NCBI GenBank assembly: GCA_028683385.1
Contig: JAQUIJ010000007.1
Coordinates: 1 to 64,000, forward strand
Direction of reading: 5' to 3'
Source of the DNA: Prolixibacteraceae bacterium
GTDB lineage: Bacteria; Bacteroidota; Bacteroidia; Bacteroidales; Prolixibacteraceae
DNA length: 64,000 bases
Shown here: positions 48,445 to 52,526 of the stretch, one piece after another
How the letters are laid out: every line of letters begins with the position of its first letter
How positions within the stretch are numbered: the stretch's first letter is position 1
Notes under the pieces: model-generated
What the model was told of the DNA's origin: nothing
The model's input: only the letters and a program-made list of their open reading frames with translations
Database searches by the model: none
Position numbers and translations under genes: made by a program

Positions 48445-48457
48445 GGATAAAAGGCTT

Positions 48458-48504
48458 AAAATCAGACAAAAATTGTGCTTAACAATTATTTAATCTGATT
48501 TTTT
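48458..48504 (+). terminator. Terminator after tatD
   Basis: AAAATCAGA (48458-48466) pairs with TCTGATTTT (48494-48502), with an inner AATTGT/ACAATT stem. T residues follow. It separates the tatD unit from the methionine operon. Confidence 0.8.
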
Positions 48505-48524
48505 CGAAACAATTCCGATAATTC

Positions 48525-48555
48525 TTTGTCTATATAGCAAAACTATTTATGTTTG
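48525..48555 (+). promoter_or_regulatory. Promoter of the methionine operon
   Basis: TTTG at 48525-48528 and TATGTTTG at 48548-48555 with a 19-bp spacer fit the Bacteroidota consensus (TTTG, 19-20 bp, TAnnTTTG) exactly. Transcription would start near 48562, about 20 bases before the leader ORF and 200 bases before the first enzyme-like gene. Confidence 0.75.
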
Positions 48556-48580: not shown

Positions 48581-48676
48581 ATGAATCATTCAGCAAAAAA
48601 TATAACCTCCTGTGTTTCCCATCTGATGGGTTGCAATGATTCTATGATGTCCTTTATGTCTATGATAATGCGCTAG
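48581..48676 (+). CDS. Met-rich leader peptide (candidate attenuator)
   Basis: A 31-codon ORF that starts MNHSAKNITSC and ends SMMSFMSMIMR followed by TAG. Met is at 1, 16, 22, 23, 26, 28 and 30, that is six of the last ten codons if Met22 is counted. It sits between a consensus promoter and an aspartokinase-like/metY/metA operon. Runs of codons for the operon's end product before a biosynthetic operon are the hallmark of leader-peptide attenuation (established for thr, trp, his and ilv in enterobacteria). Translation is not proven, and it has no clear Shine-Dalgarno. A stop codon overlaps the start of the downstream hairpin. Confidence 0.75.
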   Translation: MNHSAKNITSCVSHLMGCNDSMMSFMSMIMR

Positions 48677-48713
48677 CCTTTAGGCGGTGTGATTTTCATA
48701 TTGTTTAAAGGCT
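48650..48713 (+). promoter_or_regulatory. Alternative RNA pairings at the leader end
   Basis: AGCCTTTA (48675-48682) can pair over eight bases with TAAAGGCT (48706-48713). The same distal arm can pair with CCTTTA (48651-48656), which lies inside the Met-codon run. GCCT/AGGC (48676-48685) gives a third, local hairpin. CCCATctgATGGG (48618-48630) forms an earlier one. Competing pairings at the leader stop suit ribosome-position-dependent folding. No intrinsic terminator T-run follows, so a Rho-dependent or translational mechanism would be needed. Confidence 0.5.
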
Positions 48714-48760
48714 CGAACCCAAATCCAAATTTTCCAAATTTCAAATTTTAAACTTATCTC

Positions 48761-50113
48761 ATGTCAAATTGTGTAGTACGATTTGGCGGAAGCAGTTTAT
48801 CTAAATTTCCTGTTCTTGAGGCTTTCGCGAGTCTTTTATCCGAATCAGAAAATGACGAAACTGTTGTTGTTTCCGCCGTTCCAGAAATACTCGAGATCCT
48901 TGAACAGGGCATAGAATCACTTATTAACAATTCAGTTACTTCCGATCTCATTGTTGATCAGATCCAGAATCATATTAATGAGCGATTGAATGTTTTTCAT
49001 CAATCCAAATTCGATGAGAATTTAATTAATGAATTGAAAAGCCTTCAGAATTTACTGAAAGGAATTGAATTTACAGGCGATTTCTCTGTATCATTGAAAG
49101 ATCAGGTAATTAGTTACTCCGAGCGTATTTCTGCATGCATTTTGCATCTATTTCTGGGCAAAAGCCAGGTCAGTTCAAACCTCCTTTTTCCTGAAAATAT
49201 CGGGTTAATTGTGACCAAAGAATACGGAAACGCAACGATTTTGTATGATGAATCCGCCAAGCTTCCCACTTTGCTGCCAAAAGGTATAAATCTGATTCCC
49301 GGTTCATACGGAATTACTTCAGGAGGAAAAGTAGCCAGATTGGGCAAACGATCGGCTGATTACTCTGCAGCTGGAATTACTCGATTGATTGGCGCTGATA
49401 CGCTTCAACTTTGGGAACTCGATGCCGAGTTCAGAACTTCGGATGCAGCTTTTATTCCTGATTCACAGCTTATTTCACGGCTGACTTATGCTGAAGCTTC
49501 AGAATTATCGTATTTCAGCGAGCAATCCATTCATCCGCGTATTGTCGAGCCGCTAATCAGCAATCATATCCCAATTCATGTTTATCGTCTGAAAAACAAA
49601 GAAAAAGAGTTGACTACCATTATCAATTCTGAATCGTTTGTTACGCCCAACGTAGTTAAAAGCGTGGTACATACCGAAGAAATTGCTGTATTGAAACTTA
49701 ATGGCCCTGGCGTTGGTTTCAAACCCGGAATTTTGGCTAAAGTAACAACGGCATTTCATCAATCGGCGATTAACATTCGATCGGTAATTACCTCACAGGT
49801 GAGTATTAATATTATTCTGAATAAGAATGAAATCGAGAAAGCACGGCAAATTTGTAGTCAATTACCGCTAAGTTCGGTAAGCGAGATTGTTATTGAAGAT
49901 CAGGTTTCGCTAATTGCAGTTGTTGGTCACGGCATGCAGCAACATCATGGTGTTTCTGCCAAGTTGTTTACGGCAGTTGCACAGCACAAAATCAATGTAC
50001 TGCTGAGCGGTTCCGGCGCTTCTGATTTAGTTAGTTATCTGATTGTTGATCAAAAGGATACTCAAAAAGCAATAACCGAAATACACAACATATTTTTCAA
50101 ATCGAATTTTTAA
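48761..50113 (+). CDS. Aspartokinase-like protein with two ACT domains, probably non-catalytic
   Basis: The 450-aa protein has the amino-acid-kinase fold (about 1-280) and two ACT domains (about 305-375 and 380-450: AVLKLNGPGVGFKPGILAKV, VSLIAVVGHGMQQHHGVSAK). Key motifs deviate: the usual KFGGTS is RFGGSS (Lys to Arg7), TDVDG is ELDAE (about 219-223), and RGGSDY is KRSADY (196-201). Glu121 and Asp200 remain. Such changes argue against normal aspartate phosphorylation. It may be a regulatory or structural paralogue, or an enzyme of changed activity. It is the first gene after the Met leader, 18 bp before metY. Confidence 0.8.
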   Translation: MSNCVVRFGGSSLSKFPVLEAFASLLSESENDETVVVSAVPEILEILEQGIESLINNSVTSDLIVDQIQNHINERLNVFHQSKFDENLINELKSLQNLLKGIEFTGDFSVSLKDQVISYSERISACILHLFLGKSQVSSNLLFPENIGLIVTKEYGNATILYDESAKLPTLLPKGINLIPGSYGITSGGKVARLGKRSADYSAAGITRLIGADTLQLWELDAEFRTSDAAFIPDSQLISRLTYAEASELSYFSEQSIHPRIVEPLISNHIPIHVYRLKNKEKELTTIINSESFVTPNVVKSVVHTEEIAVLKLNGPGVGFKPGILAKVTTAFHQSAINIRSVITSQVSINIILNKNEIEKARQICSQLPLSSVSEIVIEDQVSLIAVVGHGMQQHHGVSAKLFTAVAQHKINVLLSGSGASDLVSYLIVDQKDTQKAITEIHNIFFKSNF

Positions 50114-50125
50114 CCCTTAAAATAA

Positions 50126-51436
<1,311 letters not shown>

Positions 51437-51599: not shown

Positions 51600-52526
51600 A
51601 TGCCAATTAATGTTCCAGATCAATTACCAGCAATAGAACTTCTTCAGAAAGAGAATATTTTCATCATGGACGAATCGCGTGCCGCGCATCAGGATATTCG
51701 TCCACTTAAGATTATCATTGTCAATCTGATGCCCATCAAGATTACCACTGAGACTGATTTGATCCGATTACTGTCGAATACCCCGCTTCAGGTTGAAATC
51801 GATTTTCTCCGGATGAAAGGCCATGAGTCAAAGAATACGTCGGATGTTCACATGAAGGCGTTCTACAAGACCTTTGATGAGTTGAAATCGAAAAATTATG
51901 ACGGAATGATTTTTACCGGCGCTCCTGTTGAATTACTTCCTTTTGAAGAAGTGACCTACTGGAAAGAGCTGACAGAGATTTTCGACTGGTCGAAATCGCA
52001 TGTAACATCATCGCTGTTTATTTGTTGGGCGGCACAGGCTGGATTGTTTCATTTTTATGGTGTGCCGAAATATCCATTGGAGAAAAAGATGTTTGGAGTT
52101 TTTAAGCACCGGAATTTAAATGATACTCTGCCCATCTTCAGAGGTTTCGATGACGAATACTTTGTCCCGCATTCGCGTCACACTGAAGTTTTGGAAAAAG
52201 ACATTCAGAAAGTAATTGAATTGAATATTGTTTCGAAATCGGAAGAGTCTGGCGTAAATATGGTCATGACTTATGATGGCCGGCAATTCTTTGTGACCGG
52301 ACATTCCGAGTATTCGAGATACACGTTGGATACTGAGTACAAACGTGATTTAAAGAAAAAATTGCCAATTGAAATTCCGATCAACTATTATCCGGATAAC
52401 GATCCTGAAAACGAACCATTGATGCGTTGGAGAGGACATGCTAATTTACTGATATCAAATTGGCTGAATTATTACGTTTATCAGCAAACTCCTTACGTTC
52501 TTGATAATTTATGCTTTGATATTTAA
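51600..52526 (+). CDS. metA: Homoserine O-acetyltransferase (MetA family)
   Basis: MetA activates homoserine with an acyl group from CoA. The 308-aa sequence aligns without gaps to the family at key positions: nucleophile Cys142 (FICWAAQAG), His235 and Glu237 (GHSEYSR). Residue 111 is Glu ([10 protein letters not shown]); in characterised members Glu111 gives acetyl-CoA specificity and Gly111 succinyl-CoA. I therefore predict acetyl transfer despite the traditional name, in line with MetY next door. It is 163 bp from metY across the MITE-like element and is probably in the same operon. Confidence 0.94.

Follow-up and report, generated by a model that had tools for sequence, protein, structure and literature searches.

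A conserved methionine-codon leader ahead of an aspartokinase-metY-metA operon in the Prolixibacteraceae

INTRODUCTION

Leader peptides with a Rho-dependent output are known from tnaC and mgtL. In both, as in the E. coli topAI uORF (PMC12121999, excerpted text), expression depends on where the ribosome stands on a short ORF, with no simple terminator/antiterminator pair involved; inducer and sequence differ from those of the methionine (Met) element described here. A Met leader has been predicted in Streptomyces lividans, where metL precedes metNIQ, and its authors too report no typical Rho-independent terminator (PMC8079986, in excerpt). This metL differs from the present element in phylum, in peptide, in having a transporter as its target and in its leaderless transcript, but it means that the idea of a Met leader is not wholly new. 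Leader-peptide attenuation is suspected ahead of amino-acid operons in Flavobacterium psychrophilum (PMC9723704, in excerpt), short ORFs have been noted in 5′ UTRs of Bacteroides thetaiotaomicron (PMC7366714, in excerpt), and the main text of a survey of attenuation (PMC2965389) contains neither 'Bacteroid' nor 'Flavobacter'. A first-pass annotation of the DNA studied here had proposed a Met-codon leader and thought it possibly novel; a predicted Met leader is thus already in print, and among open PMC papers we found none for the Bacteroidota.

RESULTS

The leader locus and its level of chance occurrence

The window, i.e. the whole 64,000-nucleotide stretch of DNA analysed here, contains a short ORF between a TAnnTTTG box and three genes of methionine synthesis (Table 1). 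The ORF translates as MNHSAKNITSCVSHLMGCNDSMMSFMSMIMR up to its stop codon, with Met at positions 1, 16, 22, 23, 26, 28 and 30, and the two promoter elements, TTTG and TATGTTTG, stand 19 bases apart. Promoter box, ORF length and Met positions had been given in the first-pass annotation and proved exact on re-reading the sequence; the downstream genes, which it had called aspartokinase-like, metY and metA, all score above the cut-offs of the corresponding models.

Table 1. Features of the leader locus and the operon behind it
Feature	Position	Strand	Basis
-33 element TTTG	48525..48528	+	sequence; similar TTTG/TTG upstream in relatives' alignments by reading
-7 element TATGTTTG	48548..48555	+	TAnnTTTG box common to relatives
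Leader peptide ORF, 31 codons + stop	48581..48676	+	sequence, conservation
H1, CCCAT-CTG-ATGGG, hairpin within ORF 5′ of Met run	48618..48630	+	fold, shuffle signal, covariation
Met run, codons 22-30, ATG at 22, 23, 26, 28, 30	48644..48670	+	position-specific conservation
H2, overlaps stop codon; 18 pairs, loop 3, -21.9 kcal/mol	48675..48713	+	fold, covariation, covariance model
Spacer, 47 bases, unstructured, single G, no U-tract right after H2	48714..48760	+	
Aspartokinase-family gene, AA_kinase + ACT domains	48761..50113	+	TIGR00657 above cut-off
metY, O-acetylhomoserine sulfhydrylase	50132..51436	+	TIGR01326 above cut-off
metA, homoserine O-acetyltransferase	51600..52526	+	NF047918 above cut-off

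Such a concentration of Met is rare in this DNA. Internal Met makes up 6 of 30 residues in the leader, against 1.93% in the long ORFs of the window (binomial p = 2e-5), and among 463 short ATG ORFs of the window (19–60 aa, both strands) the leader is the only one with at least five Met in its last 10 residues. Two further features of the surroundings may be mentioned. An inverted repeat (AAATCAGA/TCTGATTT) with T residues lies right behind the upstream TatD-like gene (48457-48505) and is possibly the terminator of that gene, in which case the leader would begin its own transcription unit. The aspartokinase-family gene of the window, in which a domain search found no homoserine dehydrogenase domain, starts (48761-48800) with MSNCVVRFGGSS, and the genome's ThrA-like aspartokinase (G000:C33) with MKVLKFGG; the Lys of the KFGG motif, which we take to be catalytic in aspartokinases, is replaced by Arg at the equivalent place in the window's copy.

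Conservation and distribution

Aspartokinase homology alone, irrespective of any leader, was used to retrieve loci, and 52 distinct ones had 260 or more upstream bases (three further loci were left out, their upstream sequence being too short). An automatic test asked for a short ORF that ends 40–165 bases before the gene and has three or more Met among its last 14 residues. A Met leader is present at 47 of the 52 loci, 39 by the automatic test and 8 by reading, the latter having two Met only or an ORF that extends beyond the usual stop; a Thr/Ile version is found at three loci, and neither kind at the remaining two (L156, and L167 from another family). Of 94 leaders, 88 are preceded by the box TAnnTTTG, where shuffles predict 6.3, and the six that lack it all belong to loci in which a SAM riboswitch precedes the leader. 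The operon is equally constant: among 20 fetched operons aspartokinase and metA occur in all and metY in 19. The conservation of frame, Met run and promoter box supports the earlier proposal of a Met-codon leader that would control a methionine operon.

The element was found in the window's family only. Among 140 family genomes, 85 contain its tail pattern, ATGNNNATGCGNTAGCCTTY, at a single place each (reversed-pattern control: 0). In a sample of the order the exact pattern matched 6 of 392 genomes, all six from the window's family, of which seven genomes had been sampled; the reversed control pattern matched one genome. A covariance model run over the class with strict filters hit 1 of 148 genomes, the window's own. 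Of the named relatives, 8 of 18 are labelled Prolixibacteraceae, the others being 'Bacteroidetes' or 'Bacteroidota bacterium' or carrying single other names. We also looked within 400 bases of metA at 22 further loci of the order, 21 of them from other families and one from the window's family, in which metA is part of the operon. No Met leader was found there except a weak, probably chance ORF (L235), and since metA follows closely behind another gene in many of these loci, a leader further up would be missed.

Met codons are kept by position and frame

For the codon pattern we used 44 leaders from the aspartokinase-homology loci, selected only by the last Met codon and the base of H2. With codon -2 (counted from the stop) as anchor, ATG occupies codon -4 in 44/44 leaders, codon -6 in 34/44 and codon -9 in 32/44, and codons -3, -5, -7 and -8 hold 8–15 different codons each; codons -9, -6, -4 and -2 are thus shown by these alignments to be the preferred Met positions. 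Over the last 11 codons, 175 ATG triplets lie in frame, as compared with 4 and 0 in the two other frames; the full set of 95 distinct leaders has 367, 4 and 2. The pattern used to select these 95 prescribes the last Met and the base of H2, and 48 of them stem from loci retrieved with a pattern in which codon -4 is prescribed too, so that these columns are not independent evidence; the 52-locus test and the blind hairpin search described below are. With AAAGGC as its H2 3′ arm, the window's own leader falls outside this set.

The check on relatives suggested in the first-pass annotation thus finds reading frame and Met run both kept, with constant Met codons and varying codons between them. This bears on the alternative that the ORF encodes a conserved functional microprotein. 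The N-terminus is indeed similar within the window's genus (MNHSAK in most), but body and N-terminus differ between genera, and even among members of the genus the changes in most body codons replace the residue (row L010, whose register is off by one codon, was left out of this comparison). As the Met codons are conserved by position and frame while the body is replaced, it is the Met codons that are kept and not the whole peptide, and a microprotein is the least probable of the explanations considered here.

Two hairpins and a constant distance from Met codon to H2

Both hairpins exceed shuffles in four groups of genera; H2 has a constant place in all of them, and H1 in three, lying ~12 bases further up in g42. 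Covariation was assessed in 20 sequences from genera other than the window's (g11, g9 and g10). Changes on both sides were found in 6/6 pairs of H1 (80.8% of cells paired) and in 4/13 pairs of H2 (95.4% of cells paired); none of 500 shuffles attained such values. At its base H2 hardly varies from GCCUUC/GAAGGC, and L044 has GUCUUC/GAAGAC there with pairing preserved. A covariance model built from the same 20 sequences, hence without the window's genus, finds the window at 48613-48713 (E = 5e-9) and matched 14 of 18 chosen sources, namely the window and 13 loci, 12 of these from other genera; L155 was matched in part, and there was no match to the Thr/Ile leader L143 nor to the his, ilv and HcyBio loci. 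Additional hairpins were seen in two genera: most g42 loci (L091-L104) have a small one of the TGCTC..GAGCA type 3′ of H2, and in g7 the extra hairpin is CCGGTCC..GGACC instead.

When hairpins were sought without regard to their sequence, the last ATG lay 6–8 bases 5′ of the best one in 34 of the 52 loci (2.5 expected). The other 18 fall outside this range, seven of them at 4–5 bases with another, overlapping hairpin; the search used a fixed list of widths, so some loci picked another hairpin, and all are counted among the 52. By eye, the distance from Met codon to H2 is kept where the stop codon has moved (L044) and where it has been lost (L005, L006, L016, L147, L148 and L149); in these six loci the ORF continues into H2.

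Two conserved hairpins, one with an almost invariant base, are also what a metabolite-binding RNA would offer, with Met codons that are incidental. The conservation tracks codon phase, however, and in two genera SAM riboswitches stand separately upstream of the leader. Moreover, no Rfam family reaches its gathering level in the window, where neither the SAM-I riboswitch (RF00162) nor a T-box scores above the gathering threshold and the leader has only a chance-level snoRNA match (E 3). We regard a riboswitch in place of the leader as highly improbable.

Comparison with the his and ilv leaders of the same family

The genomes of the family offer a direct comparison. Textbook His and Ile/Val/Leu leader peptides precede hisG and ilvD (G000:C23; L205, L210) in 8/8 family genomes each. 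Like the Met element they combine a short ORF rich in end-product codons, a hairpin behind the ORF and a matching operon, and the presence of both designs in the same genomes makes them comparable side by side. Used as a positive control, these leaders (e.g. MNKAIKHYGHHHGTLSEGRQ and MKNISIISLVIISVVVLLRAE, each up to its stop codon) have a hairpin with a U-tract in 16/16 cases, and pairing of the leader with the 5′ arm of the terminator gives a mean z of -2.41 (his) and -3.30 (ilv), the weakest single case being -0.84 (L202). The Met element lacks both U-tract and pairing with a terminator arm, and it differs further in that its control codons lie directly against the hairpin.

These differences weigh on the reading of the Met element as a classical attenuator, in which, as in trp, his and ilv, an antiterminator (2:3) would compete with an intrinsic terminator (3:4). 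A control-codon leader ahead of the matching operon is what this reading predicts, H1 could serve as the pause hairpin, and the anatomy in question does exist in the family, where eight genomes have it in their his and ilv leaders. At the Met locus, however, only 11 of 95 leaders have TTTT in the 12 bases that follow H2, and H2 is absent from the terminator-like sites of our scan. Pairing of the leader with the H2 5′ arm, compared with shuffled leaders, gave mean z values of 0.03, 0.49, 0.01 and -0.30 in four groups, against the -2.41 and -3.30 of the same kind of test on his and ilv, where the terminators had been chosen for their U-tract. A partner-swap test found no class of pairing consistent across genera: its largest signal, -1.31 sd for leader with spacer, occurs in g42 alone (H2 arm with spacer: -1.15 sd), and the window's genus shows weak signals of -0.88 sd for the leader with the H2 5′ arm and -0.92 sd for the Met run with the middle of H2. 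A conserved antiterminator was accordingly rejected as a candidate, duplex energies against shuffled leaders and against swapped partners giving nothing consistent.

The first-pass annotation had placed the Met run 'as in classical attenuators'. This part of it fails, as TTTT is absent from the 12 bases past H2 in 84/95 leaders, no alternative pairing is conserved across genera, and the Met run adjoins H2 instead of lying upstream of a competing strand. Its interpretation as a whole is therefore partly supported: the element is real and conserved, it is very probably a sensor of Met supply, and a classical mechanism, which we consider distinctly unlikely, is not supported by the anatomy.

A proposed mechanism

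Judging from codon pattern, hairpins and operon content, we think it rather probable that a cis-acting leader peptide reads the supply of charged Met-tRNA and thereby sets expression of aspartokinase, metY and metA. That Met supply is what is sensed appears very probable; that H2 is the element switched seems probable, though to a clearly lesser degree. H1 would slow RNA polymerase, so that the ribosome could catch up. When Met-tRNA is short, the ribosome would stall within the Met run. The leading edge of a ribosome lies ~12–13 bases beyond its A-site codon; if that codon is the last Met, the edge would reach over the 5′ arm of H2, H2 would not form and the operon would be on. With plentiful Met the ribosome would depart, H2 would form and expression would drop. 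The constant distance from last Met codon to H2, taken together with the ribosome footprint, favours such direct occlusion of H2 by a stalled ribosome, and occlusion appears to fit the fixed spacing best.

Several points stand against this explanation. By footprint geometry only a stall at the last Met codon reaches the H2 arm, and a starved ribosome would be expected to halt at the first Met codons, short of H2; furthermore, H2 has no U-tract, release of its 3′ arm leaves the predicted accessibility of the gene start unaltered, and the ORF enters H2 in six loci. As output of H2, our first guess would be a transcription stop or pause assisted by a factor (Rho or NusA/NusG), with mRNA decay as the second; an off-state by assisted transcription stop is offered tentatively, as somewhat less likely than the contrary. 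Between H2 and the gene, spacers (range 8–198 bases, some with wrongly called starts) contain 7.3% G and 17.8% C, with a median C/G of 2.2 as compared to 1.0 in 29 control upstream regions.

Instead of transcription, stalled ribosomes might alter mRNA stability or the translation of aspartokinase. Translational attenuation occurs in Bacteroides (tetQ), a stable hairpin without U-tract followed by an unstructured spacer would suit a switch at the mRNA level, and ORFs that enter H2, as at the six loci, would be tolerable for a switch that acts on finished mRNA. However, H2 does not hide the start region of aspartokinase, whose unpaired probability is 0.50 with H2 closed and 0.48 with its 3′ arm free (n = 88). 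On this calculation start-site sequestration of the erm/tet type was rejected (mean difference -0.02, n = 88; below -0.1 in 9 cases and above 0.1 in 5). We judge post-transcriptional control unlikely, if less so than the classical scheme.

If correct, the proposed sensing of Met supply would amount to codon-reading control of a methionine operon in a phylum for which we found none described in open PMC papers, and if the output step proves new, to a way of building an attenuator from one hairpin.

SAM riboswitches and a change of leader codons

The SAM-I riboswitch (RF00162), which senses SAM through RNA, precedes the same operon in two genera. In g7 it stands in tandem with the Met leader at 4/4 loci. 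In g12 (L141, L142 and L143) a SAM riboswitch lies upstream and a Thr/Ile leader follows it, before the same aspartokinase-metY-metA operon, at all three loci found; a fourth g12 genome, 77% complete, gave no aspartokinase match. The g12 leaders read MITMTTITRTSISML (up to the stop codon), MITNNNTIRTNTSML and MITIYYITRTNTSML, and both H2 and the Met at codon -2 are retained. In the same scan, a SAM riboswitch was absent from 13 further loci of other genera. It is likely, going by these leader codons, that g12 has changed the amino acid sensed. The replacement of most Met codons by Thr/Ile codons beside a SAM riboswitch amounts to an evolutionary test of the notion that leader codons name the amino acid that is sensed. 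Among 12 thrA loci inspected by reading, no Thr leader was recognised before thrA.

More generally, the element may represent a design in which a single hairpin set against the control codons is occluded by a stalled ribosome, without a terminator/antiterminator pair and with a factor-assisted output, in which the codons can be re-specified, from Met to Thr/Ile, once Met sensing has passed to a SAM riboswitch, and in which both can be stacked as a two-input device. We put this forward as a possibility that we would not yet bet on.

The window's genome contains one SAM riboswitch, located elsewhere. It is directly followed by a second Met-ending ORF (L135 and L200:328-393; G000:C51), MKQLSILHLLSFMYFSNMCMR up to its stop codon, then by an HcyBio (PF01837) gene, and past this by a NIL-ferredoxin gene and metH. 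The H2 sequence is not present at this Met-ending ORF. Similar ATG ORFs follow 11 of the 15 riboswitches found outside g7 and g12; at L137 such an ORF may exist with another start codon, and at L138 the next gene is not HcyBio. Met accounts for 26 of the 250 internal residues of these ORFs.
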